Origin: Pontederia crassipes
Taxonomy: Eukaryota; Streptophyta; Magnoliopsida; Commelinales; Pontederiaceae
Length of the DNA: 64,000 bases
NCBI GenBank assembly: GCA_030549335.1
Contig: CM060194.1
Coordinates: 12,030,171 to 12,094,170 of the forward strand
Reading direction: 5' to 3'
Below are positions 6,292 through 39,286 of the stretch, piece after piece. The position numbers were made by a program, and so were the translations under genes. The notes beneath the pieces are model-generated. The model had not been told where the DNA came from and did no database searches. It saw only the letters and a list, made by a program, of their open reading frames with translations. The first letter of the stretch is position 1. Every line of letters starts with the position of its first letter.

Positions 6292-7325
6292 CTTTGGGTA
6301 TCCTAAGAGTTGATAGGCCCGTAGAACTTTAACTCTATTTTAAATCGTAGTGAACCGTTACAATCAATGATAAAGGTCTTGGGGATTAGACTATTAGGGT
6401 AAGGTTAAAAGCTCTAACATATGGATACTTATTATAATCTTTGGATATCCTAAGAGGTGCTAGATCTTTAGAACTTTAACTCGATTTCATAAGAGGTGAA
6501 CTATTACAATCGATGATAAGTTCTTGGGCCTTACAGTCTTAGAGTAAGTTTCAAAGCTCTAAGTTATAGATACTTAATATAACAATTGGGTATCCTAAGA
6601 GGTGATAGATCTTTAGAACTTCAACTCGATTTCAAATCGTAGTTGAACCATTACAAACAGTGATAAAGCTCTTGGGGATTAGACTCTTAGAGAAAGGTCC
6701 AAAGCTCTAACTTATAGATACTAATTATAACCTTTAGTATCCTAAGAGGTGGTAAATCTTTAGAACTTTAACTCTATTTCAAGCCGTAGTTGAACCGTTA
6801 CAATCAATGATAAAGATCTTGGCGATTAGAGTCTTAGTTATAGATACTTATTATAACCTTTGGGTATCCTAAGAGATGGTAGATCTTTAGAACTTTAGCT
6901 CTTTTTCAAACCGTAGTTGAAACTTTACAATCAATGATAAAGATCTTGATGATTAGAGTCTTGAAGTAAGGTTCAAAGCTTTAAGTTATAAATACTTATT
7001 ATAACCTTTGGGTATCCTAAGCGGTGATAGATGTTTAGAACTTTAACTCTATTTCAAACCGTAGTTGAACCATTACAATCAATGATAAAGTTCTTGGGTA
7101 TTGGAGTGTTAGAGTAATGTTCAAAGCTCTAAGTTATAGATACTTATTATAACCTTTGGGTCTCCTAAGAGGTGATAGATCTTTAGAACTTCATCTCTAT
7201 TTCAAACTGTAGTTGAACCGTGACAATCAATGATAAAGCTCTTGGGGATTAGAGTCTTAGAGTAAGTTTCAAAGACTGAGTTATATATACTTAATATAAT
7301 CATTGAGTATTCTAAGAGGTGGTAG
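6292..7325. repeat. Satellite A block 1 (about 148-bp monomer)
   Basis: About seven tandem monomers. A typical monomer contains, in order, CTAAGAGGTGATAGATCTTT, AACTCTATTTCAAACCGTAG, TTGAACCGTTACAATCAATG, ATAAAGCTCTTGGGGATTAG, AGTCTTAGAGTAAGGTTCAA and AGTTATAGATACTTATTATA. A consensus counted by eye is 148 bp. It has no coding potential. The first monomer starts part-way, at the gypsy LTR edge. Confidence 0.9.
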
Positions 7326-13300: not shown

Positions 13301-13910
13301 GGTATCCTTTGAGGTGATAGATTTTTATAGCTTTAACTCTATTTCAAACCATAATTGAATCGTTACAATAAAAGACTAAGTTCTTGGGCATTGTAGTCTT
13401 AGAGTAACGTTCAAAGCATTAAGTTATAGACTCGTAGAGCAAGGTTCAAAGCTCTAAATTATAGACACTTATTATAATCTTTGGCAATCATAAGAGGTTA
13501 TAGATCTTTAGAACATCAACTCTATTTCAAACCCTAGTTGAAACATAACAAACAATGATAAAGCTCTAAGAGATTAGACTCTTAAAGAAGGGTTCGAAGC
13601 TCTAACTTATAGATATTAATTATAACCTTTAGGTATCCTAAGACGTAATAGATCTTTAGAACTTTAACTCTATTTTAAACCATAATTGAATCATAAATAT
13701 CAATGATAAAACTCTTAGTTATAGATACTTTTTATAACCTTTGGGTATCCTAAGAGGTGGTAGATCTTTAGAACTTTAACTCTATTTCAAATTGTGGTTG
13801 AACCGTTTCAATCAACGATAAAGCTCTTAGGGATTTGTGTCTTAGAGTAAGGTTTAAAGCTCTAAGTTAAGGATACTTATTATAACTTTTGGGTATCCTA
13901 AGACGTGGTA
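10375..13910. repeat. Satellite A block 2
   Basis: About 22 monomers of the 148-bp satellite in the same orientation as block 1, with point differences and occasional truncated monomers (for example near 13400-13450 and 13690-13720). It is interrupted by a small insertion at 12894-13128. No genes. Confidence 0.9.
12894..13128. mobile_element. Small non-autonomous DNA element (MULE/MITE-like)
   Basis: A 235-bp insert in a satellite monomer starts AAGGGTAAATTACACGAATG, a phrase common at ends of short plant repeats, and contains ACGTGGCCAACACGTG and repeated CCACGTCA words. It is flanked by tatagatact (12884-12893) and tatagatatt (13129-13138), a 10-bp target duplication with one mismatch. Duplications of 9-10 bp are typical of Mutator-like elements. 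Terminal inverted repeats are weak, so the family call is tentative. Confidence 0.6.
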
Positions 13911-14284
13911 CACTACTAGAAAAACGCGGATTACCGACGGTCCGAACCGTCGGTAATCAGCCCGAAAACCGTCGGTAACGCAATTACCGACGATTTTTCA
14001 GTCGGAATCGATCCGTCGAAAAAATGCTCGTCGCAAACGGATTTGCGACGGTTGAAAAAATTCGTCGAAAATATCGACGGTTCTGGACGTCGGAACAGTC
14101 CCCAGCGGTTCGACCCGTCAAAATTTTCCGACGGTTGCAACCGCCGGAAAAGTCCCCGGTGGTTCGAACCGTCGATATTTTCGACGGTTGCAACCGCCGA
14201 AAAAGGCCGGCGGTCCGAACCGTCGATATTTCCGACGGTTGCAACCGCCGGAAATGCGGTTCGAACCTTCGCAACTTTTTGAAC
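13911..14284. mobile_element. CACTA fragment with one terminus
   Basis: It starts with CACTACTAGAAAAACGCGG, a CACTA terminus, followed by GC-rich subterminal repeats (ACCGTCGG, CGACGGTTGCAACCGCCG). The satellite resumes exactly after 14284, with GTA on both sides (13908-13910 and 14285-14287), as expected for a 3-bp CACTA target duplication. The right end has no matching inverted terminus (it reads cgcaactttttgaac), so it is either truncated or a one-ended event. The short reading frames inside are by-products of the repeats. Confidence 0.75.
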
Positions 14285-14761
14285 GTAGATCTTTGGAACT
14301 TTAACTGTATTTCAAACCGTAGTTGAACCTTTACAATCAATGATAAAGCCCTTGGAGTCTTAGAGTAAAGTTCAATGATCTAAGTTATAGACACTTATTA
14401 TAACCTTTGGGTATCCTTAGAGGTGTTAAATCTTTAGAACTTTAAGTCCATTTCAAATCGTAGTTGAACCGTTACAATCAATGATAATGCTCTTGGGATT
14501 AAAGTCTTAGAGTAAGGTTCAAAGCTTTAAGTTATGCACACTTATTATAACCTTTGGATATCGTAAGTGGTGCTAGTTCTTTAGAACTTTAACTCTATTT
14601 CAAACCGTCGTTAAGCCGTTACAATCAATGATAAAGTTCTTGGGGATTAGAGTCTCAGAATATGGTTCTAAGCTCTCACGTATAGATACTTATTATAACC
14701 TTTGTGAATCCTAAGAGGTGGTAGATCTTTAGAACTTTAACTCTATTTCAAACCATAGTTG
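14285..14761. repeat. Satellite A block 3
   Basis: About three 148-bp monomers between the CACTA fragment and the solo copia LTR, in phase with block 2. Confidence 0.9.
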
Positions 14762-16028
14762 TGTAGGATCCCAAAGGGCACCAAGAGGGGGGAGGGGTGA
14801 ATTGGTGTTTAACCGAAAATGTCGATTTCACGAAATTCATCGTGGAAGCATAAAACCGATTCTTAAAAACCTTTGCAATTCAGATTATAAACACAATATT
14901 AATGGGGAGAGAGAGAGTGAGAGAAATCAAACACGATGAACACGGGTGGTTGTTAATGAGGTTCGGCCTCACCTTGGCTTACGTCCCCATTCTGACTTCT
15001 CGACCTCGAGACCGCCGGAGATTCCACTAATCCCTTCTTTTGTTCCAAATGGGGCAAGGAAGAAAGCCCTTTACACAACCACCTTTTTCTCCGCTTCGAG
15101 AGGCAAGACAACCTCTCCTCCTAGGAAGCTAATCTTTTCTCTTGCTCAAGAGGTAAGATTTGGAACCTCTTTTACACAGGAGCTCTCACAATCTTTTTGA
15201 AGAATAGTTTCTCTCTTTTACAATAGAACACTCACAAGAAGAGAAGAGAGAAAGAAAGACGGCTCTAAAATGATAACTTTAAGAGAAATGATCTCATTTT
15301 GATTTCTTGAAGTTTTGCTTCAATGCTCGGATTTATTAGTTACTTTTGCTTCTGGCCTTGGCACTCCTTTTATAGGCTCTGGTATGTGGAAAATTTGTCG
15401 AGAATTAATTCCATATTTTTCTCCTCAAAATATATCCATTACTGTTCATTTCAGTAATGGATCGATCGACCGCATTTATGGGCCGGTCGATCGGACAATA
15501 TGACTGTTGCGCTGATTTCTCCAATTACCGCAGCTGGTCGGTCGACCGGACTATCGACCAATGTCTCGACCAGTATACTCTCGCAGTTTTGATTTGTAGC
15601 CGTTGAGCTGATCGGTCGGCCGCTGGATCGATCAGTCTATCGACCGATATAGTCTCATAGTTTTCATTTGAGCAGCTTATGCCTTGATCGGTCGACCAGT
15701 ATCTCCGATCGGTCGACCGGACTGTCCCGACCGGCCTTCATAGCTTCGACCGGCAGGTTGATTGCCCTGCACTATTTTAAGCATAACTTTCTGCACGGTT
15801 ATCCAAATTAGATGATCTTGGAGTCTATGGAAAGGTAACTGAATTCTCTACAACTCTGGTTCCACATTCTTCCAAAACTAATGAGATCAGTGACAATTAT
15901 TTAGTCAAAGTATAGTGTGCACAAAGTTATATCTTTTTCTTTAAACTTCTTAGCATTTTATCTTTAATCATTCGAGCTTTGTATCATCAAAATATAATTT
16001 AATATGTCACTAAAACTTAGATCCAACA
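14762..16028 (-). mobile_element. Solo copia LTR
   Basis: A 1267-bp LTR, minus orientation, same family as 7326-8548 and 58068-59319. It is flanked by a perfect 5-bp target duplication AGTTG (14757-14761 and 16029-16033); removing it restores the satellite phrase ..TAGTTGAACC. A TATA box (ctataaaagg) lies at 15375-15366. About 15465-15770 is rich in GGTCGACCGG motifs. Solo LTRs arise by recombination between the two LTRs of a full element. Confidence 0.93.
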
Positions 16029-18533
16029 AGTTGAACCTTTACAATCAAAGAAAAAGCTCTTGGGGATTAGACTCTTAGACTAAGGTTCAAGTCTCTAAGT
16101 TATAGATACTTTTTATAAACTTTTTATAATACTTTAACTATATTTCAAAGTATAGTTGAACCGTTACAATCAATAATAAAGTTCTTGGGGATTAGAGTCT
16201 TAGAGTGCAGTTCAATGCTTTCAGTTATAGATACTTATCATAACCTTTTGGTATCCTAAGAAGTGGTAGATCTTTAGAACTTCAAGTCTATTTCAAACCG
16301 TAGTTGAACCGTTAAAATTAATGATAAAGCTCTTGGAGTCTTAGAGTAAGGTTCAAAGCGCTATGTTATAGATACCACTTATAAACTTTGGGTATCGTAA
16401 GAGGTGGTAGATCTTTAGAACTTTAATTCTATTTCAAATCATAGTTGAACCGTTATAATCAATAATAAGGCTCTTGGTAATTAAAGTCTTAAAGCAAGGT
16501 TCAAAGCTCTGAGTTATAGACACTTATTATAACGTTTAGGTATCCTAAGAGGTGGTAGATCTTAAGAACATTTAACTCTATTTCAAATCGTAGTTCAACC
16601 GTTACAATCAATGATAAAGCTCTTGGGGATGAAAGCCTTAGAGTAGGGTTCAAAGCTCCTACTTATAGACACTTATTATAACATTTGGGTATCCTAGGAG
16701 GTGGTAGATCTTTAGAACTTTAACTGAATTTCAAACTATTGTTGAACCGTTACAATCAATGATAAGCTCCTGGGGATTAGAGTTTTACAGTAGGGTTCAA
16801 AGCTCTAAGTTATAGATATTTTTTATAACCTTTGGGTATCTTATGAGGTGATAGGTCCTTAGAACTTAGAGTAAGGTTCAAAGCTCTAAGTTATAGACAT
16901 TTATTATAACCTTTCGGTATCCTCGGAGGTGGAATATCTTTAGAACTTTAACTTTGTTTCAAAACCGTAGTTGAATCGTTAATATCAGTGATGTAGCTCT
17001 TGGGGATTAGACTCTTAGAGTAGGTTTCAAAGCCCTAAGTTATAGATACTAGGGGGTGATAGATCTTTAGAATTTTAACTCTATTTGAAACCGTAGTTGA
17101 ACTGTTACAATCAATAATAAAGCTCTTAGGTATTGAAATCGTAGAGTAAGGTTTAAATCTCTAAGTTCTAGATACTTATTGTAACCTTTGGGCATCCTAA
17201 GAGGTGGTAGATCTATAGAACTTTAACTCTATTTCAAACTGTAATTGAACCTTTACAATCAATGACAAAGCTCTTGGGCATTGAAGTCTTAGAGTAACGT
17301 TCAAAGCTCTAAGTTATGGATACTTATTATAACTATAGGTTCTCCTAGGAGGTGATAGATCCTTAGAACTTTAACTCTATTTCAAACCGTAGTTGAACTG
17401 TTACAATCAACGATAAAGCTCTTGGAGATTAAACTCTTAGTGTGAGGTTCAATGCTCTAAGTTATAGACACTTATTATAACCTTTGGGTATCGTAAGGGG
17501 TGATAAATCTTTAGAATTTTAACTCTATTTCAAACCGTAGTTGAACCGTTACAATCAATGATAATGCTCTTGGGGATTACAGTCTTAGAGTAAGGTTCAA
17601 ATCTTTAAGTTATAGATACTTGTTCCAACCTTTGAGTATCCTAAGAGGTGATAGATCTTTAGAACTTTAACTTTATTTCAAACCGTAGTTGAACCGTTAC
17701 AATCAATGATAAAGCTCTTGGGCATTGGAGTCTTAGAGTAACGTTCAAAGCTCTAAGTTATCGATACTTATTATAACTATAGGTTCACCTACGAGGTGAT
17801 ACGTCCTTGGAACTTTAACTCTATTTTATACTGTAGATGAACCGTTACAATCAACAATAAAGCTCTTGGGGATTAGTCTCTTAGAGTGAGGTTGAAAGCT
17901 CCAAGTTATAGACACTTATTATAACCTTTGGGTATCCTAAGAGGTGATAGATCTTTAGAACTTTAACTTTATTTCAAATCGTAGTTGAACCATTACATTC
18001 AATCATAAAGCTCTTGGGCGTTGGAGTCTTAGAGTAACGTTCAAAGCTCTAAGTTATGGATACTTATTATAACAATAGGTTCTCCTAGGAGGTGATAGGT
18101 CCTTAGAACTTTAACTATTTCAAACCGTAGTTCAGCCGTTACAACCAATGATAAAGCTCTTGGGTATTAGATTCTTAGAGTAAGGTTCAAAGCTCTAACA
18201 TATAGATACTTGTTATAAGCTTTGTATATCCTAAGAGGTGGTAGATCTTTAGAACTTTAATGTTATTTCAAACTGTAGATGAACCGATGTAATCAATGAT
18301 AGAGTTCTTAGAGATTAGAGTCATAGAGTAAGGTTCAAAGCTCTAAGTTTTATATACTTATTATAACCTTTGTGAATCCTAAGAAGTGGTAGATCTTTAG
18401 AACTTTAACTCTATTTCAAGTCATAGTTGAACCGTTACAATAAAAGATAAAGCTCTTGGGAATTAGACTTTTAGACTTTCAAAGCTCTGTTATAGATAAT
18501 TATTATAACCTTTGGGTATGCTAAGAGGTGATA
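16029..18533. repeat. Satellite A block 4
   Basis: About 17 monomers. A variant with the phrase AATAGGTTCTCCTAGGAGGT or close relatives recurs near 17330, 17780 and 18080, roughly three and two monomers apart, indicating local higher-order repeats. Some monomers are shortened (near 16120, 16860 and 17045). Confidence 0.9.
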
Positions 18534-21383
18534 TGTCACGGACGTGCTTCACAAATATCATTTTAACATAATCTTGCTCTTAATTAGCATTTTAAGTAAG
18601 TTTAGATGCTTATATAGTCATGATTGCGTGTAGCAATTAACCTTTGGATTAAAGCATAATCAAAATTAAATTATCGATAAGCATTATAAAGAAATTATAT
18701 AAAATTATTAGGAATAAATTCTAATATTTGTAAATGTTATAATAAACATTTTTAATTATTATTAACTAATGTTAATTAGAAGTTTAATACTAATTTTTAA
18801 CCAAATAATATGATTGGACCTCCATTTCAACCAATAGGGTTTCAAGCAGCTGAAGCAGACAGCTCACTAGCTGCTTAGAAAAAGATTTTTTCAAACTATC
18901 ATATGACGTGTTAAAATTCTGAAAACAATATATAAAACATTTATTTGTATTATCTACAATCCGAAAAATTCCCAAGATCAGATCGATTGCCGAACAGCCT
19001 GAGGAAATTCGACAAGTTTTCAGGGTTAGGGTGAATCTGCGGATGCGAAACCAACCTTCAACTTCATATGATCATGTATTCGTAATTAGTTCTTCATAAA
19101 TCCTGAAAATTTTCATCTGGATCCTCTCGATGTTAGATTTCTAGGACCACAAGAATCATATAAAAAGGACTTCTCTAGAGAAGGTTATAAATCGAGCACC
19201 ACAGGACGCTCACTCTGTCCCGAGTCAGAGATAGGTCCGCCTTGTAGATTAGGGTATGATTAGGGTAAATAGAATTAGGGTTTGAAATTTAGACATGTTA
19301 AATTATACTTCACAGGAGTTCGGTGAGAATTGGAATCATCCAATTTGGATGTGTAGATGTGAAAAAATGAATTTTTCATTTCATAGTGATTTTTCTATCA
19401 GGTTTCAGGAAATTAATAGAACACGACTCGAATTGATTATTTTTGTTATAGAGTTATACAAGAAGTTAAATTCTCTAATTTTTATGCCAAAATAGTAATG
19501 AAGTCTAGTTTTCAGAAAAATTATGATATGATTAAATGGACAAGTATGAATAAACATATAAATCAATCTTTCTATGGCACAAGTCTGCCAGGACACAAAC
19601 CCTAGGTAAGATTGCCTTAGATGTTATGACTTACTCACTTGGAGTTAGTTAATGATATTTGAGGGTTGGAAACCTTAATAAGTGTAGTTTCTGATTTATG
19701 CAGAATCATGAGATTTGTCTTTGTGGTTGAAGTTATGAATTATTCATTGACGAGTACTCAGTCTAAAATCCTAAGACATCACCTAGTTAAACTTTGGAAA
19801 ATTGAATAGTTGGGAGTGTGAAGTAGCATATGAACATAAACACTTGAAATTACAAATTAGTATTAGAAAGTATTATATGCATTTTAAGGTGAATAAGTTT
19901 TCATGCATGAGCATGCATTGCATATTGTTATTATTAGTAATTGGAAAATAAAATAGCATCATTACTTGTAGGGAACCAACAAGCTACAAGTGAAAGGAGG
20001 AAAATCTAGTAAACCTCTTTGAAAACATAAAGCATAAGGTGAGTGGGTAAATTTACAACATAGCAAAAATATTATATGTTAGTTCTTTTATTTATGGTAT
20101 TACCTTAAGCAAAGATTATTATTGTTATTATTGAAACATATCTTGAGCTATGAAAAGTATTTATGATATGTTTCAAGGATTTCATATGAGATGGAGTAAC
20201 ATCTTATACAAAAATATTTTCAGGAACAATGCTTGTGAAGTGAAAATAAGTTTTACTCGATAATGATATGACATTATGACGTGTATTTTGATATTATTAA
20301 ACTCCATGTGTTCATTATCCATACTGTTTGAAAAAGGTCTTTGGGACCGCATTCGATATACATGAAGCCTTTGGGGCGGATATCGAGTGTCTTTGCCCTT
20401 TGGGGGCTGCTCTGCGTGCACGTATTGACCCATTATATGCTCTGCGTATCTGAGAATCATGATTGGGTGGTACACAATCATGATTGGGATACGTATTGAC
20501 CCATAATTTGCTCTGTGTATTTGAGACTCTTTGATTGTGAACTCTACTTAACTGTATGACACACAGTCATGGAGGGATACGTATTGACCCATGATTTGCT
20601 CTGCGTATTTGATACTCTTGATTATGAAGCTCTACTTAACTGTATGACACATGATCATAGAGGGATACGTATTGTCCCATGATGAGTATGCGTAATGACA
20701 CATGTGTGAAGTTTAACTGTGAATATGATGATATCTTGAATAATTTATATTTATGTAAAAGTTCATATGATTTGGGAAGTTATGTGAAATGAGTTATGCT
20801 TTAAATATTTTCTCATATTTTCTCATATGATTATTTAAATATTATATGCACTCATATTATTCCCGTATGTTGTATATTTATTCCACTCACTAAGCAAACG
20901 ATTGTTGCTCACATTACCCTTGTTGATTTTCTTCAGATGATTATAAGTTCTTGAGTTGAGTTGACTCGAAGCTTGGTTTGATGCATATAGAAGAGGTCGA
21001 ACCGTCGGAGCATTGCTATTTTTCTTTCACTTTTATTTTCCCTTCACTTTTGTTTTTGAAACATGCATGTAATAGATAATCCTAGATGTTGTAATTAAGT
21101 TTGTGAGAGATTTTTTGTAAGGTTGTATAAAACTTGATCCTGTTGGGTGTTGTATGTGAGGTGGTTAGTGAAAAAAATTATAATGATAATATGTGAATGA
21201 TATATCTTATAATTGTTTATTTGACCTTGATGAATATATATGCATCTTTTGTATGTATTGGCAAATGACATACGATAAATAAGGGAGGAGGCTTTGCTGA
21301 TTTTATTTTTAGAATTGCTAAACATAATTAAGAAGAAAGGTAATAGCTGGGATTATAACTTAGTCACAGAGTGGGGTGTGACA
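18534..21383 (+). mobile_element. Solo LTR of Tekay-like gypsy family (copy 1)
   Basis: A 2850-bp LTR beginning TGTCACGGACG and ending GGGGTGTGACA, flanked by a perfect TGATA target duplication (18529-18533 and 21384-21388) inside satellite A. A TATA-like tataaaaagg is at 19159-19168. It is closely similar to the 3' LTR at 26895-29736 and more distantly to 30322-33062. The short open frames in it are not genes. The satellite to its right is also shared with the DNA right of 29736. Confidence 0.93.
20421..20710 (+). repeat. Tandem repeat inside the gypsy LTR
   Basis: Units beginning CGTATTGACCCAT..TTGCTCTG start at 20421, 20492, 20580 and 20668, giving spacings of 71, 88 and 88 bp. The same array is present in the other two LTRs (from about 28770 and 32101), so it is an old family trait. 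Confidence 0.8.
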
Positions 21384-21902
21384 TGATAGATCTTTAGAAC
21401 TTTAACTATATTTCAAACTTTAGTTGAACCATTACAATCAATGATAAAGCTCTGGGGGACAAGACTCTTAAAGTAAGGTTCGAAGCTCTATGTTATAGGA
21501 GGTGGTAAATCTTTAGAACTCTAACTTTATTTCCAACTGTAGTTGAACTATTTCAATCAATGATAAAGCTATTGGGGATTAGTTATAAATACTTATTGTA
21601 TCCTTTGCGTATCCTAACAGGTGGTAGATCTTTAGAACTTCGAGTCTATTTCAAACCGTAGTTGAATCGTTAGAATTAATGATAAAGCTCTTGAGGATTA
21701 GACTCTTAGAGTAAAGTTCAAAGCTCCATGTTATAGATACTTATTATAACCTTTGGGTATTCTAAGAGGTGAGAGATCTTTAGAACTTGAACTCTATTTC
21801 AAACCATAGTTGATCCATTACAATCAATGATAAAGCTCTTGAGCATTGGAGTCTTAGAGTAACGTTCAAAGTTCCAAGTTATAGAGTAACGTTCAAAGTT
21901 CC
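21384..21902. repeat. Satellite A block 5 (duplicated flank)
   Basis: About 500 bp of satellite that matches 29737-30230 monomer for monomer, including unusual variants such as GGGGGACAAGACTCTTAAAG and the shortened monomer TGTTATAGGAGGTGG. It is therefore a copy of the same flank. It ends with a 21-bp direct duplication (21855-21875 and 21882-21902) at the junction with CACTA sequence. Confidence 0.88.
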
Positions 21903-22480
21903 GTCGGAAATAGCTGAAATATTGCAATTTTTAGCAGATTTTTTCGATACTTACCGACGGTTATATCCGTCGGTACACAATTATCGACGGTCGTAGCCCA
22001 CGAGTAAAATCGTCGATACAAGATTGTCGACGGTTTTAACCGTCGATACTATCAACGGTTCAAGCCGCCGATATATATCGACGGTTAAAACCGTCGATAG
22101 TATCCACGGTTCAAGCCGCCGATAGATATCGACGGCATGAACCGTCGATATTATCGACTGTTTAAGCCGCCGATAAATATCGACGGCTTGAACCGTCAAT
22201 ACTATTGTCGGTTCAAATCGTCGATATATATCGGCGGTCCTAACCGTCGATAATATTGACGGTTCGCCCCGTCGATATTTAACGTTCGACTGCCGCGCCC
22301 GCCAGCTAGACCGTCTGTAATACCGACGGTTCAGAAGAAACCGTCGCAAAAAATTTGCGACGCCCCTTTTTCGCACGATCATTGTCTGTCGAAAGAACCG
22401 TCGGAAATCGTGATTTCCGACGGATCTGGCCATTTTACCGACAGTTAGGACCGTCGATAAAAGGCAATTTTCTTGTAGTG
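21903..22480. mobile_element. CACTA right-end fragment
   Basis: It contains many alternating ATCGACGGTT / AACCGTCGAT subterminal repeats and ends GGCAATTTTCTTGTAGTG at 22480, a CACTA terminus. The next base continues a gypsy LTR at its internal position of about 2693, so the transposon had inserted in that LTR. Its left part is missing and is replaced by satellite A through a rearrangement junction. The 199-codon minus-strand frame here is a repeat artefact. Confidence 0.85.
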
Positions 22481-22634
22481 CTTGATGAATATATATGCAT
22501 CTTTTGTATGTATTGGCAAATGACATAAGATAAATAAGGGAGGAGGTTTTGCTGATTTTATTTTTAGAATTGCTAAACATAATTAAGAAAGGTAATAGCT
22601 GGGATTAGAACTTTGTCACAGAGTGGGGTGTGAA
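22481..22634 (+). repeat. Truncated 5' LTR (3' end only)
   Basis: Matches the last part of the LTRs at 21226-21383 and 29579-29736, but ends GTGTGAACG instead of GTGTGACA and is followed by the primer-binding site. Confidence 0.85.
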
Positions 22635-22640
22635 CGAGTT

Positions 22641-22652
22641 TGGTATCAGAGC
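22641..22652 (+). promoter_or_regulatory. Primer-binding site (tRNA-Met initiator)
   Basis: TGGTATCAGAGC, complementary to the 3' end of plant initiator tRNA-Met, a few bases after the LTR end. Confidence 0.88.
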
Positions 22653-23950: not shown

Positions 23951-25909
23951 AAATCATGTCCTCGGTGCATATGATCATATGATATATGAGTTTGATCAAT
24001 TAATTATTATGTAGCCTTTCTTCCTAATATAGAAAGGACGTATGATGTGTTCTCTTGTACCCAATCTAAGAAAATATGAACTAATCATTTACATATGACT
24101 GAGTATGAACAACTTATTGATTTGAACAAGAACTTGTTACATAAAGAACAATTAGTTTGCATCTTATATCAAAAAGAAAATACAAAAGATAATAAAAGTC
24201 ACAACCTAAGATATTGTGTTATAAAAGTTATGCAATGAGACATTGAATTTTGGAATAAACACATTTGAATCTTATGAAGGTGTGATGAAAGGATATTTAC
24301 AAGCTACTCTTCATAGTTTTGTATTTAACATACATTGGAATACCCATATGTATGAGAATTAGATAATAGATATGTATTACATCATTGTTATTCTAATTTT
24401 AATAATCAAGTCTTTGGATTTAAACGCTATATTTGTTCGACTCTCTCAAGTGATTATGGTTATTCTAAATTTGTGAATAATATACATATGAGTTGACTTT
24501 GAAGCTTAATTCTACCAGATCCAAGTAAAATATGCTAATAGAAAGTTTAAAAAAAGAATAAAATATAGTTATGTTGCTTTGAATAGTCAAAATCAATTTT
24601 CAAAAGGTGCTATAAATAACATAGGTGAAATATGAATATGATCATGAAAACTTTTAAAATATATATGAATGATCCTTATTATGAAACTAGAAATTACTTG
24701 TGTTGGATGTGTAGTTGGTAAGTATGAGTTTTGTTCTTTGGGTTTGATAACATCAAATCTTAACAAGATTTTACAAGATATTGAAGGTTCTATAGGGACA
24801 ATAAGTAAGAGAATAGATTCTTGTAATACTATGAAGACATTATGAGATGTCTATATTAATAAGAAATGATAAACATTTTATAAAAATGGATAATAATATT
24901 AAACTACGCATAAAGGTTGGAGAACCAATCATCAAATCAGTTTAGTGTTGAAAATTGATACCTATTTGATGTGATTCAAATTATATGATGATCATTACAT
25001 TGTTATTGTCTAATGTGAATTATTATCGGTGATCAAACAACATTCATCGTTATACATTCTGAATCATTGACGATTCTTGATTAGTTGTTATTGATTGTGA
25101 TTCTTCATATTTGGGAATTAATTTTTACTCATCATTATCTACCACATTTCATCTAGGGTGACTGATTAAACCATCATTGTCACTCCTTTATGAGTGATAA
25201 ATGATTTGCCATTTTGGACTTTAGTACGTCCATTAATTTTGAAAGTTTAAAGGAGTTGTGAGAAAGCTTCTCGAAAGATTATTGGAGTGATGCATCCTCT
25301 GGTCATCTATCGAGAACTTTAATTAGGTGTTCATCAATCACGAAATGTTGGTTGGATGTGTAGCGAATGAGCGATTGGAGGGGGACGCCTTTCTGATCCT
25401 TGATCGCGAACTCGAATTGACATTTCAATATTGTAAATCAAATAGAGAGAAAAAGTCTTATTCATAAATTTTATTGTTTCTCACACTGACCGTTATTCTT
25501 ACGAATGATAGTGATAGTCTTTAACCTATGAATACGTGATAATCGTGCTCATTCCCCTTATCTATAATGTCTCACCTTCTTTCGTTTGTCATGATACACT
25601 CTATAATTATTGAAATTCTACCCATAATTCTTGTTATGCATAAATCTTATCAAATATTTGAAGATTTCCTTGCAATTAGTTTTTCACTCACAACCATGGT
25701 ACTTATCTTTATTGGAACCTTGTATAAAATTAGTTATGGGCAGCAAAAATAAATGAAAGAATTAATCCTTTTATGGAATGCTAAAGACATACATTCAAAA
25801 GAATATTATAGCCAAAAGAATTTTAATAAACCAATGAAGCCGAAAAATAAATAAATGCATGATTATTGTGAAATATCAAGAAAAATAAAAAGAGATCACA
25901 ATAGTTAAT
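23951..25909 (+). other. Decayed RNase H / integrase core region
   Basis: Position fits RNase H and the integrase core of the gypsy element. The sequence is AT-rich with stops throughout; no motif is convincing. Open frames such as 25567-25752 are not recognisable proteins. Confidence 0.4.
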
Positions 25910-26024
25910 TCACAAGGAAAGTTATGTCCAAAATATATAGGTCCATATGAGATTTTGACATGTATTGGGTCAACTATTTATTTGTGTATTCACAATATCT
26001 TCAATGTTTCTATGCTTCGATGAT
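25910..26024 (+). pseudogene. Gypsy integrase C-terminal relic
   Basis: The frame reads GKLCPKYIGPYEILTCIGS and then HNIFNVSMLR. It parallels the GKLSPRFIGPYEI..xVGxVAY..HxVFHVSMLRKY block that closes Tekay-type integrases just before the chromodomain. Roughly nine residues between the two blocks are deleted, and a stop follows LR. It marks the end of pol; no chromodomain is recognisable afterwards. Confidence 0.8.
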
Positions 26025-26093
26025 ATTGATCAAACTCTTGACAGACAAGCTTATCAATCAACAAATCATCAAGCTTCAATGTCACTTGGATTA

Positions 26094-26651
26094 AGATCTT
26101 TTCTTTTCCTTATATAAGTCATTAGACTGCAATGACTGCTTATAGTTATTGTAATTATGACAACAAAGAATATACTAAGTAACATTTCTAAACCATCATA
26201 TGTACCTTTTGTTTGATCTTTAGTTAGAAGACAAACGACTACAGATATCAAAGCTTAAGTCATCAGAATGATCAATGTCAAATCTTGTAAAGCATCCCAA
26301 ACAAACATCTAGAAGCTTCTTCGTGATTTTTTACGTACTTGTTGAAAGAAAAAGATATCCTACCTGTCATTATGTCAGCATCAAGTGAAACAGACATCTT
26401 TGCTATTCCATCTAGTCCTCCATTTCTCTTCAAACCCTTGTTATTATGTCCACGTACAATGGGTGCTAACTCATCTGGGTTGATGCAATAACCAACTTTT
26501 CTCATCTCTTTTGGGATATGATATTCCGGTATGCTATGAGTTAAAGCAAAAATCAAAGACAACAGAATTTCAACAAAGAATAGTACATACAATTACCTTT
26601 TGCTCATAGAGAATTAAAAATTGTACCATCAATAAATTGTGGAGCAACCTT
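26094..26651 (-). pseudogene. Captured fragment of an autoinhibited Ca2+-ATPase gene (P2B type, ACA4/11-like)
   Basis: Antisense to the retrotransposon. Exon A (26651-26597) reads KVAPQFIDG, preceded by a ..TATATGCAG acceptor and followed by G|GTAATTG, a plausible donor. A short intron-like stretch ends CTTTAACTCATAG. Exon B (from about 26533) reads PEYHIPKEMRKVGYCINPDE, then LKRNGGLDGIAKMSVSLD, and after a frameshift FVWDALQDLTLIILM (helix 1), KGTYDGLEMLLSIFFVVIIT (helix 2) and KQSLQSNDLYKEKKR. This order is that of plant ACA pumps, which export Ca2+ from the cytosol: end of the N-terminal regulatory domain, helices 1 and 2, then the cytosolic actuator side. VSVSL points to the ACA4/ACA11 group. 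Stops (one in exon A, one after helix 1) and a frameshift make it a pseudogene. Retained intron signals imply capture of genomic DNA or pre-mRNA. Confidence 0.85.
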
Positions 26652-26878
26652 CTGCATATAAAGAGAAACTCAATCTATTCTAGTATAAGAATGTTTGTCT
26701 CGAGAAGAAAATATAGTATAAATTATAAGGGTCAAGGAAAATGAATTTTGGAAAAGAAATTTTTCCTTAGTGTTAGTGTGATACGGAAAAAAATCATTAG
26801 TTAGAATGACCAAATAAGAATGAAGTATTTATTCTTATCCTTCACAACATATATCTAAATTTCGGGGACGAATTTTTT
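26652..26878. other. Region between captured gene fragment and polypurine tract
   Basis: The left part may be further intron of the captured gene. The right part (about 26850-26878, TTTCGGGGACGAATTTTT) is the stretch usual before the polypurine tract in Tekay elements. No gene. Confidence 0.5.
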
Positions 26879-26893
26879 TTAAGGAGGGGAGAA
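26879..26893 (+). promoter_or_regulatory. Polypurine tract
   Basis: TTAAGGAGGGGAGAA directly before the LTR start TGTCACGG; primer for plus-strand DNA synthesis. It shows that the following LTR is the 3' one. Confidence 0.85.
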
Positions 26894-26894
26894 T

Positions 26895-29736
26895 TGTCAC
26901 GGACGTGCTTCACAAATATCATTCCAACATAATCTTGCTTTTAATTAGCATTTTAAGTAAGTTTAGATGCTTATATAGTCATGGTTGCGTGTAGCAATTA
27001 ACCTTTGGATTAAAGCATAATCAAAATTAAATTATCGATAAGCGTTATAAAGAAATTATATAAGATTATTAGGAATAAATTCTAATATTTGTAAATGTTA
27101 TAATAAACATTTTTAATTATTATTAACCAATGTTAATTAGAAGTTTAATACTAATTTTTAACCAAATAATATGATTGGACCTCCATTTCAACCAATAGGG
27201 TTTCAAGTAGCTGAAGTAGACAGCTCACTAGCTGCTTAGAAAAAGATTTTTTTAAATTGTCATATGACGTGTTAAAATTCTGAAAATAATATATAAAGCA
27301 TTTATTCGTATTATCTGCAATCAGAAAAATTCCCAAGATCAGATCGATTGCCGAACAGCCTGAGAAAATTCGACAAGTTTGCTGGGTTAGGGTGAATCTG
27401 CGGATCTGAAACCGACCTTCAACTTCATATGATCATATCTTCGTAAGTAGTTCTTCATAAAACCTGAACATTTGCATACTCTAGATGTTAGCTTTCCATG
27501 ACCACAAGAATCATATAAAAAGGACTTCTATAGAGAAAGTTATAAATCGAGTACCGTAGGTCGCTCACTCTGTCTCGAGTCAGAGACAGGTCCGCCTTGT
27601 AGATTAGGGTATGATTAGGGTAAATAGAATTAGGGTTTAAAATTTAGAAATATACTTCACAAGGGTTCGGTGAGAAGTAGAATCATCTTTGGATGTGTAG
27701 AGGTGAAGAAATGAATTTTTCATTTCATAGTGAGTTTTCTGTCAGGTTACAGGAAATTAATACAACACGACTCGAATTGATTATTTTTATTATAGAGTTA
27801 TACAAGGAGTTAAATTCTCTATTTTTTATGCCAAAATAGTAAGGAAGTCTAGTTTTCAGAATAATTATGATATAGTTAAATGGATAAGTATGAATAAAAC
27901 ATATAAATCAATCTTTCTGTGACACACAGTCTGCCAGGGCACAAACCCTAGGTAAGATTGCCTTAGATGTTATGACTTACTCACTTGGAGTTAGTTAATG
28001 ATATTTGAGGGTTGGAAACCTTAGTAAGTGTAGTTTCTAATTTATTCAGAATCATGAGATTTGACTTTGTGGTTAAGAAGTTATGAATTATTCATTGATG
28101 AGTACTCAGTCTAAAATCCAAAGACAATACCTAGTTAAACTTTGGAAAATTGAATAGTTGGGAGTGTGAAATAGCATATGAACATAAACACTTGAAATTA
28201 CACATTAGTATTAGAAAGGATTATATGCATTTTAAGGTGAATAAGTTTTCATGCATGAGCATGCATTGCATATTGTTATTATTAGTAATTGGAAAATAAA
28301 ATAGCATAATTAGTTGTAGGGAACCAACAAGCTACAAGTGAAAGGAGGAAAATCTAGTAAACCTCTTTGAAAACATAAAGCACAAGGTGAGTGGGTAAAT
28401 TTACAACATAGCAAAAATATTATATGTTAGTTCTTTTATTTATGGTATTACCTTAAGCAAAGATTATTATTGTTATTATTGAAACATATCTTGAGCTATG
28501 AAAAGTATTTATGATATGTTTCAAGGATTTCATATGAGATGGAGTAACATCTTATACAAAAATGTTTTCAGGGAACAATGCTTGTGAAGTGAAAATAAAA
28601 TTTACTTGATAATGATATGACATTATGACATGTGTATTTTGATATTATTAAACTCCATGTTTTCATTAGCCATACTGTTTGAAAAAGGTCTTTGGGACCG
28701 CATTCGATATACATGAAGCCTTTGGGGCGGATATCGAGTGTCTTTGCCCTTTGGGGGCTGCTCTGCGTGCACGTATTGACCCATTATATGCTCTGCGTAT
28801 CTGAGAATCATGATTGGGTGGCACACAATCATGATTATGATACGTATTGACTCATGATTTGCTCTGCATATTTGAGACTCTTTGATTGTGAAGCTCTGCT
28901 TAACTGTATCACACACAATCATGAAGCGATACGTATTGACCCATGATTTACTCTGCGTATCTGATACTCTAGATTATGAAGTTTTGCTTAACTGTATGAC
29001 ACATGATCATAGAGGGATACGTATTGACCCAAGATGTGTATGCGTAATGACACATGTGTGGAGTTTAACTATGAATATGATGATATCTTGAATAATTTGT
29101 ATTTATGTAAAAGTTCATATGATTTGGAAAGTTATGTGAAATGAGTTATTCTTTAAATGTTTTCCCATATGAAATAAATATGATTATTTAAATATTATAT
29201 GCACTCATATTGTTCCCGTATGTTGTATATTTATTCCACTCACTGAGCAAACGATTGTTGCTCACATTACCCTTGTTGATTTTTTTCAGATGATTATAAG
29301 TTCTCGAGTTGAGTTGACTCGAAGCTTGGTTTGATGCATATAGAAGAAGTCGAACCGTCGGAGCATTGCTATTTTTCTTTCACTTTTATTTTCTCTTCAC
29401 TTTTGTTTTTGAAACATGCATGTAATAGATAATCCTAGATGTTGTAATTAAGTTTGTGAGAGATTTTTTGTAAGGTTGTATAAAACTTGATCCTGTGGGG
29501 TGTTGTATGTGAGGTGGTTAGTGAAAAAAATTATAATGATAATATGTGAATGATATATCTTATAACTGTTTATTTGACCTTGATGAATATATATGCATCT
29601 TTTGTATGTATTGGCAAATGACATACTATAAATAAGGGAGGAGGCTTTGCTGATTTTATTTTTAGAATTGCTAAACATAATTAAGAAGAAAGGTAATAGC
29701 TGGGATTATAACTTAGTCACAGAGTGGGGTGTGACA
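26895..29736 (+). repeat. 3' LTR of gypsy element (copy 2)
   Basis: A 2842-bp LTR, TGTCACGG to GTGTGACA, very similar to copy 1 (18534-21383) over its whole length. Tandem repeat from about 28770; TATA-like tataaaaagg at 27514-27523. Followed by TGATA. Confidence 0.93.
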
Positions 29737-30321
29737 TGATAGATCTTTAGAACTTTAACTATATTTTAAACTTTAGTTGAACCGTTACAATCAATGATAA
29801 AGCTCTGGGGGACAAGACTCTTAAAGTAAGGTTCGAAGCTCTATGTTATAGGAGGTGGTAAATCTTTAGAACTCTAACTTTATTTCCAACTGTAGTTGAA
29901 CTATTTCAATCAATGATAAAGCTATTGGGGATTAGTTATAAATACTTATTGTATCCTTTGCGTATCCTAACAGGTGGTAGATCTTTAGAACTTTGAGTCT
30001 GTTTCAAACCGTAGTTGAATCGTTACAATTAATGATGAAGCTCTTGAGGATTAGACTCTTAGAGTAAAGTTCAAAGCTCCATGTTATAGATACTTATTAT
30101 AACCTTTGGGTATTCTAAGAGGTGAGAGATCTTTAGAACTTGAACTCTATTTCAAACCATAGTTGAACCATTACAATCAATGATAAAGCTCTTGGGCATT
30201 GGAGTCTTAGAGAACGTTCAAAGTTCCAAGTTATAGATACTTGTTATAAACTTTGGGTATGCTAAGAGATGATAGATTTTCAGAACTTTAATTCTATTTC
30301 AAACCGTAGTTGAACCGTTAC
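29737..30321. repeat. Satellite A block 6
   Basis: About four monomers. 29737-30230 is the counterpart of block 5; the remainder continues as ordinary satellite to the next LTR. Confidence 0.9.
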
Positions 30322-33062: not shown

Positions 33063-36000
33063 GTTACAATCAATCATAAAGCTCTAGCTGATTAGATTCT
33101 TAGAGTAAGGTTCAAAGCTCTAAGTTATAGACACTTATTGTAACCTTTGGGTATCCTAAGAGGCGCTAGATCATTAGAACTTTAACTCTATTTCAAGTTG
33201 TGGTTGAACCATTACAATCAATGATAAAGCTCTTGGGATTAGAGTCTTAGAGTAAGGTTCAAAGCACTAAGTTATAGATCCTTATTGTAACCTTTGGGTA
33301 TACTAAGAGGTGGTAGATCTTTAGAACTTTAATTTTATTTCAAACCGTAGTTGAACCATTACATTCAATGATAAAGCTCTTGGGCATTGTAGTCTTAGAG
33401 TAACGTTCAAAGCTCTAAGTTATAGATACTTATTATAACCTTGGGTTAGCTATGAGGTGATAGATCTTTAGAACTTTAATTCTATTTCAAACCGTAGTTG
33501 AACCATTACAGTCAATGATAAAGCTCTAGGGGATTAGATTTTTAGTGTAATGTTCAAAGCACATAGTTATAGACACCTATTATAACCTTTGGGTATGCTA
33601 AGAGGTGGCAGATCTTTAGAACTTTAAACTCTATTTCAAACTATAGTTGAACCATTACAATCAATGATAAAGCTCTTGGGCATTGGAGTCTTAGAGTAAC
33701 GTTCAAAGTTCTAAGCTATATATACTAAATATAACCATTGGGTATCCTAAGAGGTGATAGATCTTTAGAACGTCAACTCTATTTCAAATCGTAGTTAAAC
33801 CGTTGGAATCAATGATAAAACTCTTGGGGATTGGACTCTCAGAGTAAGGTTCAAAGTTCTAATTTATAGATTATTATTATAACCTTTGAGAATCTTAAGA
33901 GGTGATTGATCTTTAGAAATTTAACTCTATTCCAAATCTTAGTTGATCCATTACAATCATTGATAAGTTCTTGGGGATTAGAGTCTTAGAGTAAGATTCA
34001 AAGCTCAAAGTTATATATACTAATTACAACCTTTGAGTATTCTAAGAGGACGTACATCTCTAGAAATTTAACTCTATTTCAAATTGTAGTTAAACCGTTA
34101 CAATCAACGATAAAGCTCTTGGTGATTAGAGTCTTAGAGTAAGGGTCAATGTTCTAAATTATAGATACTTATTATAACCATTGGGTATACTAAGGGGTGG
34201 TAGATCTTTAGAATTTAACTCTATTTCAAACTGTAGTTGAACCGTCACAATCAATGATAAAGCTCTTGGACATTAGACTCTAAGACTAACGTTGAAAGCT
34301 CTTAGTTATAGATACTTATTATAATCTTTTGAACTTTAACTCTATTTCAAACCGTACTTGAACCGTTACAATCAATGATAAAGCTCTTGGGATTAGAGTC
34401 TTAGAGTAAGGTTCTAAGCTCTTAGTTATAGATACATATAATAACTTTTGGGTATCCTAAGAGGTGGTTGATCTTTAGAACTTTAACTCTATTTCAAATC
34501 GTAGTTGAACTGTTAGAATCAATGATAAAGCTGTTGGGCATTAGTTTCTTAGAGTAAGGTTCAAAGATCTAAGTTATACATACTAATTATAAACTTTGGG
34601 TATCCTAAGAGGAGGTAGATCTTTAGAACTTTAACTCTATTCCAAATTATAGTTGAACTGTTACAATCAATGATAAAGTTCTTGGAAATTAGATTCTAAG
34701 AATAAGGTTCAAAGCTCTAAGTTATAGACAACTTGTTATAACATTTGGGTATCCTAAGAGGTGTTAGATCTTTTGAACCTTAACTCCATTTCAAACTGTA
34801 GTTGAACTGTTACAATCAATGATAAAAGCTCTTGGAGATTTGATTCTTAGAGTAAGGTTTAAAGCTCAAAGTTATAGACACTTATTATAATGTTTCAGTA
34901 TCCTAAGAGGTGGTAGATGTTTAGAATTGTAAATCTATTTCAAACATTAGTTGAACCGTTACAATCAATTATAAAGCTCTTGGCATTGGACCCTTAGAGT
35001 AACGTTCAAAGTTCTAAGTTATATATACTTAATATAACCATTGGGTATCTTAAGAAGTAATAGACCTTTAGAACGTCAACTCTATTTCAAACCGTAGTTG
35101 AACCGTTAGAATCAATGATAAAGCTCTTGGGGATTGGACTCAGAGTAATGTTCAAAGCTCTAATTTATAGATACTTATTATAACCTTTGAGAATTTTAAG
35201 AGGTGATAGATCTTTAGAAATTTAACTCTATTCCAAATCTTAGTTGATCCGTTACAATCATTGATAAGTTCTTGGGGATTAGAGTCTTAGAGTAAGGTTC
35301 AAAGCTCGAAGTTATATATACTAATTCTAACCTTTGAGTATTCTAAGAGGACGTAGATCTCTAGAAATTTAACTCTATTTCAAATCATAGTTGAACCGTT
35401 ACAATCACTGATAAAGCTCTAGGGTATCCGAGTCTTAGAGTAAGGTTCAAATCTCTAAGTTATAGATAGTTGATATAACCATTGGGTATCCTACGAGGAG
35501 ATAAATTTTTAGAACTTTAACTCTATTTCAAACTGTAGTTGAACCGTTATAATCAATGATAAAGCTCTTGGGGATTAGAGTCTTGGAGTAAGTTTCAAAG
35601 CACTAAGTTATAGATACTTAATATAACCATTGGGTATCCTAAGAGGTCATAGATAGATCTTTAGAACTTTAAGTCTATTTTAAACCCTAGTTGAATTATA
35701 ACAATCAATGTTAAACCTCTTGGGGATTAGAGTCTTAGAGTAAGGTTCAAAGCAATAAGTTAGAGATACTAATTATAACCTTTCGGTATCATAAGAGATG
35801 GTAGATCATTAGAATTTTAACTCTATTTCAAACCGTAGTTGAACCATCATAATCAATGATAAAGCTCTTGGGGATCAGAGTCTTAGAGTAAGGTTCAACT
35901 CTCTATGTTATAGATAGTTAATATAACTATTGGGTATCCTAAGGGGTGAGAGATCTTTAGAACTTCAACTCTGTTTCAAACCGTTGTTGAACCCTTACAT

Positions 36001-39000
36001 TGAATGATAAAGCTCTTGGGGATTGGACTCTTAGAATAAAGTTCAAAGCTCTAATTTATAAATAATTATTATAACCTTTGTAAATCTTAAGAGGTGATAA
36101 GTTTTTAGAACTTTAACTCTATTTCAAATCATAGTTCAACCGTTACAAGCTCCGATAAGTTCTTAGGGATTAGAGTCCTAGAGTAAGGTTCAAAGCTCGA
36201 AGTTATATATGCTAATTATAACCTTTGGATATCCTAATAGGAGGTACATCTCTAGAAAATTTAACTCTATTTCAAAACGTAGTTGAACTGTTAAAATCAG
36301 CGATAAAGCTCTTGGTGATTAGAGTCTTAGAGTAAGGGTCAATTCTCTAAGTTATAGATACTTATTATAACCATTGGGTATGCTAAGAGGTGGTACATCT
36401 AAGTCTATTTGCAAACCGTAGTTGAATCATTACAATCAATGATAAAGCTCTTGAGGATTAGACTCTTCGACTAAGGTTCAAAGCTCTTAGTTATAGATAC
36501 TTATTATAACCTTTGTGTATCCTAAGAGGTGGTAGATCTTTTCAACTTTAACACTATTTCAAACCATAGTTGAACCGTTACAATAAATGATAAAGCTCCT
36601 CAGAATTAGATTATTAGAGTAACGTTCAAAGGTCAAACATATAGACACTTATTATAATGTTTGAGTATCCTAAGAGGTGATAGATCTTTAGAACTTTAAA
36701 TCTATTTCAAACTGTAGTTGAACCGTTTCAATCAATGATTACACTTTTGGGCATTAGTTTCTTAGAGTAAGGTTCAAAGATCTAAGTTATACACACTAAT
36801 TATAAACTTTGGGTATCCTAAGAGGAGGTAGATCTTCAGAACGTTAACTCTATTTCAAACCGTAGTTGAACTGTTACAATCGATGATAAAGCTCTTGGGA
36901 ATTAGATTCTTAGAGTAAGGTTCAAAGCACTAAGTTATAGACACTTATTTTAACGTCTGGGTATCCTAAGAGGTGGTAGATCTTTTGAACCTTAACTCTA
37001 TTTGAAACTGTAGTTGAACCATTACAATTAATGACAAAATCTCTTGGGTATTAGATTCTTAGAGTAAGGTTCAAAGCCCAAAGTTATAGAGACTTATTAT
37101 AACATTTGTGTATCGTAAGAGATGGTATATCTTTAGAACTTTAAATCTATTTCAAACTGTAGTTGAACCATTACAATCAATGATAAAGTTCATGGGGATT
37201 AGACTCAGACTAAGGTTCAAAGCTCTTACTTGTACATACTTATTATAACCTTTGTGTATCCTAAGAGGTGGTAGATCTTTTGATCTTTAACTCTATTTCA
37301 AACCGTAGTTGAACCGTTATAATCAATGATAAAGCTCTTGGGGATTAGACTCTTAGACTAAGGTTCAAAGCACTTAGTTATACATACTTATTATAACCTT
37401 TGTGTATCCTAAGAGGTGGTAGATCTTTAGAACTTTAACTCTATTTTAAACCGTAGTTGAACCGTTACAATCAATGATAAAGCTCTTGGTGATCAGAGTC
37501 TTAGAGTAAGGTTCAAAGCTCTTAGTTATAGATACTTATAATAACCTTTGGGTATCCTAAGATGTGGTAGATCTTTAGCACTTTAACTCTATTTCAAAAC
37601 GTAGTTGAACCGTTACAATTAATGACAAAGCTCTTGGGAATTAGATTCTTAGAGTAAGGTTCAGAGCTCAATGTTATAGACACTTATTATAATGTTTGTG
37701 TATCCTAAGAGGTGGTTGATCTTTAGAACTTTAAATCTATTTCAAACTGTAGTTGAACCGTTACAATCAATGATAATGCTTTTGGGCATTAGTTTCTTAG
37801 AGTAAGGTTCAAAGCTCTAAGTTATAAACACTAATTATAAACTCTGGATATCCTAAGAGGTGGTAGATCTTTAGAACTTTAACTCTATTTTGAAGCGTAG
37901 TTGAACCGTTACAATCAATGATAAAGCCCTTCGGAATTAGATTCTTAGAGTAACGTTCAAAGCTCAAAGTTATAGACACTTATTATAATGTTTCAGTATC
38001 CTAAGAGGTGGTAGATCTATAGAACTTTAAATCTATTTCAAACTGTAGTTGAACCGTTACAATCAATGATAAAGCTCTTGAGCATTAGTTTCTTAGAGTA
38101 AGGTTCAAAGACCTGAGTTATACACACTAATTATAAACTTTGGGTATCCTAAGAGGAGGTTGATCTTCAAAACTTTAACTCTATTTCAAATCGTAGTTGA
38201 ACTGTTACAATCAATGATAAAGCTCTTGGGAATTAGATTCTTGGAGTAAGGTTCAAAGCACTAAGTTATAGACACTCATTTTAACGTTTGGGTATCCTAA
38301 GAGGTGGTATATCTTTTGAACCTTAACCCTATTTGAAACTGTAGTTGAACCAATACAATTAATGATAAAAGCTCTTGGGGATTAGATTCTTAGAGTAAGG
38401 TTCAAAGCTCAAAGTTCTGGACACTTATTATAATGTTTGAGTATCCTAAGAGGTGGTAGATCGTTAGAACTTTAAATCTATTTGAAACTGTAGTTGAACC
38501 GTTACAATCACTGATAAAGTTCTTGGGGATTAGACTCAGACTAAGGTTCAAAGCTCTTAGTTGTACATACTTATTATAACCTTTGTGTATCCTAAGAGGT
38601 GGTAGATCTTTTGAACTTTAACTCTATTTCAAATCGTAGTTGAACTGCTACAATCAATGATAAAGCTCTTGGGGGTTAGACTCTTAGACTAAGGTTCAAA
38701 GCTCTTAGTTATACATACTTATTATAACCTTTGTGTATCCTAAGAGGTGGTAGATCTTTAGAACTTTAACTCTATTTCAAACCGTAGTTGAACCGTTACA
38801 ATTAATGATAAAGCTCTTGGGGATTAGACTCTTAGACTAAGGTTCAAAGCTCTTAGTTATAGATACTTATTATAACCTTTGTGTATCCTAAGAGGTGGTA
38901 GATCTTTTCAACTTTAACACTATTTCAAACCACAGTTGAACCATTACATTAAATGATAAAGCTCCTTGGAATTAGATTATTAGAGTAACGTTCAAAAGTC

Positions 39001-39286
39001 AAAGTTATGGACACTTATTATAATGTTTGAGTATTCTAAGAGGTGGTAGATCTTTAGAACTTTAAATCTATTTCAAACTGTAGTTGAACTGTTTCAATCA
39101 ATGATTACACTTTTGGGCATTAGTTTCTTAGAGTAAGGTTCAAAGCACTAAGTTATAGACACTTATTTTAACGTCTGGGTATCCTAAGAGGTGGTAGATC
39201 TTTTGAACCTTAACACTATTTCAAACTGTAGTTGAACCATTACAATTAATGATAAAAGATCTTGGGGATTAAATTCTTAGAGTAAG
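33063..39286. repeat. Satellite A block 7 with higher-order structure
   Basis: About 42 monomers of 148 bp. Blocks of several distinctive monomers recur: 33712-34078 with 35015-35380 (offset about 1303), and 36757-37260 with 38087-38590 (offset about 1330, nine monomers). A further copy of another block begins about 2370 bp later (36520 versus 38890, 16 monomers). The array stops at 39286, where satellite B begins without spacer. No genes. Confidence 0.92.

Follow-up and report, generated by a model that had tools for sequence, protein, structure and literature searches.

How does a piece of a host calcium pump gene come to lie reversed, with an intron still in it, inside an LTR retrotransposon, and is it confined to a single locus? 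The question is raised by a 64,000-nucleotide stretch of Pontederia crassipes DNA (contig CM060194.1, positions 12,030,171 to 12,094,170 of the forward strand; hereafter the window), in which a sequence-only reading had recognized, within a gypsy-like element, ordered minus-strand peptides of a plant P2B Ca2+-ATPase (ACA). We consider it very likely that the element is a decayed Ty3/gypsy member whose ancestor captured a reversed and unspliced stretch of host ACA sequence that then spread with it, a read-through route being the likeliest way in.

When four plant ACA proteins (P0001 from oil palm, P0003 from banana, P0009 from Dendrobium, and P0045 from grape) were compared with the whole window by tblastn, E values being calculated for a database of 1.13 Gb, the sole match at E values up to 10 was at the fragment site, on the minus strand and in the proper order. 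For the oil palm protein, the matching segments were residues 64-77, 82-153, 142-213, and 216-233, with significant E values of 1.5e-12 and 8e-15, and 200 shuffles of the same protein gave no match in the window at E up to 10. The peptides are spread over more than one reading frame. Their wording had been likened to the ACA4/ACA11 group, which agrees with the dicot proteins so named among the 120 matches listed; the monocot matches carry other numbers, and the nearest ACA proteins in that list are those of palms and banana.

Within the genome (1.13 Gb, 43 contigs), a host ACA gene was located on contig C6 (L041), its exons of interest including a 667-aa open frame that shares 82% identity with oil palm ACA over 97%. 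A match to PF12515, the exon of the N-terminal autoinhibitory domain, lies at C6:16573214, ~11 kb upstream of the ACA exons, and from this order and spacing we infer that all belong to one gene. Window positions 26687-26081, read on the minus strand, align with L041 452-1090 at 80.0% identity over 641 columns (blastn) and are colinear with it through exon 2, the intron, and part of exon 3, which fixes the exon and intron borders given in the table. The element holds ~0.65 kb of the host gene, antisense to itself. The span first proposed for it, 26094-26651, was right as to the site and slightly short at both ends, as the homology covers 26081-26687 and continues weakly to ~26040.

Features of the ACA-bearing element, in window coordinates (strand relative to the window)
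Feature	Position	Strand	Basis or remark
5' LTR stub (3' remainder)	22481..22635	+	22481-22628 vs 3' LTR: 94.7% of 151 columns
Primer-binding site TGGTATCAGAGC	22641..22652	+	sequence
Relic of integrase C-terminal end, element sense strand	25901..26039	+	SH3_Tf2-1; alignment to L050
ACA fragment, exon 2 to exon 3 including intron	26081..26687	-	blastn to L041 452-1090; tblastn with four ACA proteins; weaker homology to ~26040
Former exon 3, part (host L041 604-1090); small deletions, 2 in-frame stops, 4 frameshifts	26081..26540	-	pairwise alignment; frame check
Retained intron (host L041 514-603, 90 bp in host); donor GT kept, acceptor AG lost	26541..26626	-	pairwise alignment; splice-site inspection
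Former exon 2 (host L041 459-513)	26627..26680	-	pairwise alignment
Stretch between fragment and polypurine tract (~190 bp)	26688..26880	+	26764 onward common to ACA-free element L049
Polypurine tract	26881..26894	+	sequence
3' LTR, TGTCACGG...GTGACA	26895..29736	+	self-comparison; sequence

The two ends of the homology differ in character. On the exon 3 side, window 25900-26080 compared with host 1091-1500 gave a score reached by 2 of 300 shuffles, and in six other copies this tail matches host sequence lying inside 1198-1233, at scores attained by 0 or 1 of 200 shuffles. Upstream of exon 2, no clear homology to the preceding host intron was found in the window copy (61 of 300 shuffles reach the score) or in the same comparison for the six others, where between 25 and 93 of 200 shuffles reach the score for five copies and 8 of 200 for L023; a permissive alignment there extends to host 407. 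Since shuffles reach the score against the host intron beyond exon 2, the upstream break was probably within ~15 nt of the exon 2 splice acceptor. The exact junctions are uncertain by a few bases because the ACA-free relatives compared were only two and neither is a clean empty site.

Searches with the open frames gave little else. A Pfam search with two minus-strand ORFs of the window matched no ACA family, and phmmer with the 104-aa ORF against solved structures returned weak ribosomal-protein matches only; the same ORF had no match among 5.8 billion proteins, so that this query traces the family in no other species. Rfam gave 0 matches on the window at gathering scores. Elsewhere in the genome, on contig C5 (L042, 53026300-53028300), there is another ACA stretch in which exons 1 to 3 are continuous without introns and which breaks off early, resembling a partial processed copy. 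About 6 kb from it there is a further match to PF12515.

The element around the fragment has the expected parts of an LTR retrotransposon in the window, namely a 5' LTR stub, a primer-binding site (presumably of the initiator-Met tRNA type), a polypurine tract, which the earlier reading had also noticed, and a 3' LTR; in the family, the LTR is about 2.85 kb and the internal region about 4.2 kb. The integrase relic noticed beside the fragment was also confirmed, by a match to Pfam SH3_Tf2-1 at 25901-25960 (E 8.6e-5; its 23 bits fall short of the curated cut-off of 30) and by 63% identity over 150 columns between 25914-26039 and the integrase end of a related element, L050. When the window and three further copies (L028, L034, and L032) were scanned for coding sequence, using 54 of 57 stop-to-stop pieces (45 aa or more in the window, 50 aa or more in the others), no gag, protease, reverse transcriptase, or RNase H was present among the 11 Pfam families matched at E up to 0.5, with one member each; the integrase-end family SH3_Tf2-1 was among them (E 5.2e-5). 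Because no coding capacity was found, the element, a decayed member of a Ty3/gypsy family, is probably non-autonomous, and its lineage may be Tekay/Del.

Two relatives that share its ends are informative. L050 has the common polypurine tract and LTR start, together with integrase parts broken by stops (SH3_Tf2-1 at E 4.4e-25; rve at E 0.0045, below cut-off), and no ACA in the 1.4 kb read. The gypsy-type integrase is represented in the ACA family by the end relic alone and in L050 by these parts, with reverse transcriptase and gene order seen in neither, over the same 1.4 kb in the case of L050. L050 demonstrates that there are related coding elements, and as mobilizer of the ACA family it would be only a candidate. 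L049 shares the tract, the LTR start, and the last 130 bp before the tract; its upstream sequence is unrelated and contains no ACA, and so a different insert may occupy the same place there.

The fragment is far from private to this locus. In each of the 24 family loci compared it occupies one place, antisense, behind the integrase relic and ahead of the polypurine tract, and a single alignment spans both junctions. These loci are 20 of the first 22 non-window places (two tandem copies on contig C14 being left out) plus four, L045-L048, from the list of protein matches; in the search that supplied copies, 40 of 647 first-look candidates were scored, and copies were read mostly from the best-matching end of the family. 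L045, taken as a possible host gene for its longer open frame, turned out to be an element copy. Across the 20 fetched copies the window LTR and internal region align piecewise and in order, and the 10-kb stretches contain both LTRs in 12 of the 20 and one LTR in the other 8. The match to the host gene starts at 444-469 in all 24 loci and ends within 1089-1136, at 1089-1090 in five and at 1129-1136 in 19. A host-homologous segment is thereby present in every compared copy while the host gene itself lies elsewhere, on C6, and the earlier proposal of an intron-containing, antisense ACA capture between pol and the 3' LTR of a gypsy-type element gains support from both the host alignment and the constancy of placement within the LTR element.

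Short probes give the scale. A 30-mer from the fragment occurs at 206 places genome-wide with up to 3 mismatches (control, 0); the 100 places listed include two within host loci (L041 and L042) and one more near L042, so that at least two are in host genes. A 35-mer from the left flank occurs at 132 places (control, 0), and the polypurine tract with the LTR start, again allowing up to 3 mismatches, at 471 (control, 0). The ACA-bearing unit is present at about two hundred places. At 71 places the tract and LTR start are exact, and for 23 of these the matches listed include one to the family no more than 2.5 kb away toward the internal region, 18 to the ACA fragment and 5 to the left flank only, with one match at 1,995 bp. 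With 5 more found by other lists and L051, a further element copy that was among three places chosen for having no listed ACA match, 29 of the 71 have a family match. Two of the remaining 42, L049 and L050, were read and both are without ACA, a result whose scope is these two. On the tract-place counts and these two relatives, the ACA fragment is common, yet not universal, among elements with these ends. On contig C14, three ACA-element copies at 28042445, 28123577, and 28205744 are 81-82 kb apart and have near-equal scores, like a large tandem duplication.

The retained intron and the reversed orientation are both preserved, which limits the possible routes of capture. Together they disfavor a plain spliced sense mRNA as template and call for either an antisense read-through RNA or genomic DNA; in either case, we infer that the ACA piece entered as unspliced sequence. 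Retroviral transduction is an established route and provides the model for capture by read-through. On this model, an element inserted within or next to the ACA gene in antisense orientation would lose its own 3' part, and read-through RNA from the truncated element would cross the ACA gene in antisense; because such RNA is antisense to the gene, its introns could not be spliced. The reverse transcriptase would then change template, joining an ordinary element RNA at a point before the polypurine tract and so regaining the 3' end, and propagation would depend on the enzymes of a related autonomous element.

The close rival to this route, though not to capture itself, is repair at the DNA level, in which genomic ACA sequence served to fill a break in an integrated copy of the element. 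We regard this as less probable than read-through while giving it appreciable weight. It accommodates the intron and the orientation, impossible from a plain spliced sense mRNA, and under it neither would say anything about RNA. The upstream break near, not at, an exon edge also suits it, and the probable closeness of that break to the splice acceptor is a position that the read-through route does not predict and a point against the latter. However, repair filler need not fall between the integrase end and the polypurine tract, where retroviral-type transduction would place it. Read-through therefore appears the likeliest route on our analysis, because the piece sits where an element that had lost its 3' part would join host DNA.

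Whatever its route, the fragment might have been kept for a function. Divergence among 25 copies, in differences per site, is 0.1315, 0.1073, and 0.1071 at the first, second, and third codon positions, as compared with 0.1174 in the intron, 0.1128 in the upstream flank (0.0993 without L036, whose outer flank is unrelated), and 0.1154 in the downstream flank. The fragment shows neither a third-position excess nor better conservation than the surrounding sequence as a whole, and it evolves like the non-coding DNA around it; the main reading does not account for the greater variability at codon position 1 than at position 3, which counts against it. Comparison of the copies with the host gene gave 0.1868, 0.1514, and 0.1399 at the three positions and 0.1927 in the intron, values that we read as change mostly on the element side. 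In the exon 3 part, none of the 25 copies is free of stops and frameshifts. A coding function was rejected on the codon-position values and the broken frames.

The splice signals tell a mixed story. Those between the first two peptides had been thought plausible, and the donor GT is indeed kept in 25 of 25 copies, but the host acceptor AG survives in 0 of 25, having been removed by a 5-bp deletion common to 23 copies and changed in two. The window copy has the deletion, and its remaining AG is inside the former exon.

With no sign of a present-day protein role in these sequences, any effect on the host would run through RNA. Antisense-RNA or small-RNA matching to host ACA is possible: of 565 host 21-mers from the spliced exon stretch, 112 occur exactly in at least one of the 25 copies and 37 in the window copy, and 22 of the 25 copies hold at least one. 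The proposition that the antisense piece has been kept since its RNA or small RNAs would damp the host ACA gene or the element draws on these exact matches and on the role suggested for captured fragments in the available text of PMC2773423. We consider it unlikely, as divergence among copies is about the same for the fragment as for the intron and the flanks (the upstream flank being taken without L036), which gives no sign of the sequence being kept.

A third proposition is that the ACA piece lies inside an independent DNA transposon (Pack-MULE, Helitron, or CACTA) that was nested in the element before amplification. Such elements are known to capture gene fragments, and the window does contain a short element (21886-22480) that we take to be CACTA-like, though it lies outside the fragment. 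Against this, the fragment edges in the window copy have neither inverted similarity (389 of 500 shuffles reach the score) nor direct similarity (413 of 500), Helitron ends being outside this test, and the surrounding LTR element is common to 24 of 24 loci. The absence of edge similarity and the constant LTR-family context make nesting very improbable. The short element itself has a CACTACAAGAAAA end and GACGGTT-rich repeats, and it interrupts the 5' LTR of the ACA-bearing element.

Least probable of all is that several independent captures were made from one ACA gene, a view to which the differences between subfamilies in where the match stops on its 3' side (host 1089-1090 or 1129-1136) and in the 5-bp acceptor deletion might lend themselves, but later deletions explain these, all 24 loci have a match start at host 444-469, and the host sequences fall on one side of one branch. 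In the unrooted tree of 28 sequences (the window, 20 copies, four further loci, L051, and two host stretches), that branch has support of 100/100; a single element clade follows if the root is on the host branch. A single ancestral capture followed by spread with the element would fit this tree and agree with the common upstream start. The original proposal would accordingly be refined to an ancestral and family-wide capture of a fragment that appears to be without coding constraint. In 12 LTR pairs, the Kimura distance is 0.022-0.145 with a median of 0.053, which at the grass substitution rate of 1.3e-8, uncalibrated for this plant, corresponds to roughly 2 million years.

Gene pieces in LTR elements are already known, and the ACA family departs from the known cases in orientation, in its retained intron, in the number of places, and in having a known donor. 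The usual form of gene capture by retroelements has the introns spliced out, and maize Bs1 is said to have lost those of its captured pieces. Bs1 is an LTR element that carries pieces of a plasma-membrane H+-ATPase gene and of two other host genes, and to judge from the available text it is alike in bearing a P-type ATPase gene fragment, but its transduced segments form a chimeric gene whereas the ACA piece is reversed, intron-bearing, non-coding, and present at ~200 places (PMC13317346). In maize, 425 LTR elements with gene fragments represent at least 189 captures, according to the portion of PMC2774510 available; there too a host gene piece lies inside intact LTR elements, but that set averages about two elements per capture, as opposed to one capture and ~200 places for ACA. 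Twenty cases of gene pieces in LTR elements are described for one 22-Mb maize region in the available text of PMC2773423. The words orientation and antisense are absent from the main text of PMC2774510, and intron, antisense, orientation, copies of, and ATPase from that of PMC3726574. A search of the literature for an intron-bearing, antisense, or ACA capture by an LTR element found no case in titles and the starts of abstracts, where coverage of subscription papers is thin and absence is unproven.

In position, orientation, and presence in most copies, the fragment resembles the antisense additional ORFs between pol and the 3' LTR of Grande, RIRE2, Retand, and PvRetro13, as described in the available text of a review and a research paper (PMC7264820, PMC11963269). 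These inserts differ in being reading frames without known host relatives, whereas the ACA donor is identified and its frame is intact over the exon 3 part in 0 of 25 copies; because no reading frame is maintained, the ACA fragment is a parallel to such inserts and not one of them. Their origin is left open in the same available texts, where the arguments against gene capture are that captures are usually sense, that they exist in one or few copies, and that the inserts have no relatives outside transposable elements (PMC7264820, PMC11963269). Transduced sequence is usually in gag-pol orientation (PMC7264820, available text) and spliced, and the ACA fragment is neither. With its donor identified, its reversed orientation, and its ~200 places, the ACA family is a traceable counter-example to all three expectations, and it offers a system in which to test whether captured antisense fragments feed small RNAs back on the donor gene. 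That ~200 loci with reversed, unspliced ACA act genome-wide as an antisense source, with LTR-driven RNA or small RNAs acting in trans on the pump gene, and that the antisense pol-LTR inserts of other families arose likewise from host genes now too diverged to be recognized, would have sequence matches as its positive basis; we hold this broader picture to be unlikely, slightly more so than the retention of the piece for its RNA.

Large retrotransposon derivatives (LARD) combine long LTRs, no coding capacity, and many copies. The ACA family is LARD-like in its long LTRs, in the lack of coding capacity in the four copies scanned, and in its many copies, but a host gene piece, present in the internal region of the ACA family, is not a defining part of the internal region in LARD.

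The remainder of the window is rich in satellites. Blocks of a 148-bp tandem satellite occupy 6292-7325, 10377-18533, 21581-21885, 29934-30321, and 33063-39286, with LTR elements between them. Alone in this satellite, with TGATA on both sides, is a full-length LTR of the same kind as that of the ACA-bearing element (18534-21383); because this LTR plus 0.5 kb of flank is 95% identical to 26895-30237, the arrangement suggests that the satellite stretch and element were duplicated, one of the copies then being reduced to a solo LTR. Another satellite (about 151-182 bp) flips orientation at ~44.47 kb (39491-44461 vs 44478-47934 and 53892-58067), with a GC-rich gypsy element breaking into its later part. 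A gypsy element at 48615-53073 contains a chromodomain along with reverse transcriptase, RNase H, and an integrase end (Pfam RVT_1 9e-13, Chromo 8e-10) and is apparently of a different family from the ACA-bearing one. Finally, an open frame at 63184-63753 contains an FAD-binding domain (PF01494, E 1.7e-5, above cut-off) and is perhaps part of a plant monooxygenase gene.
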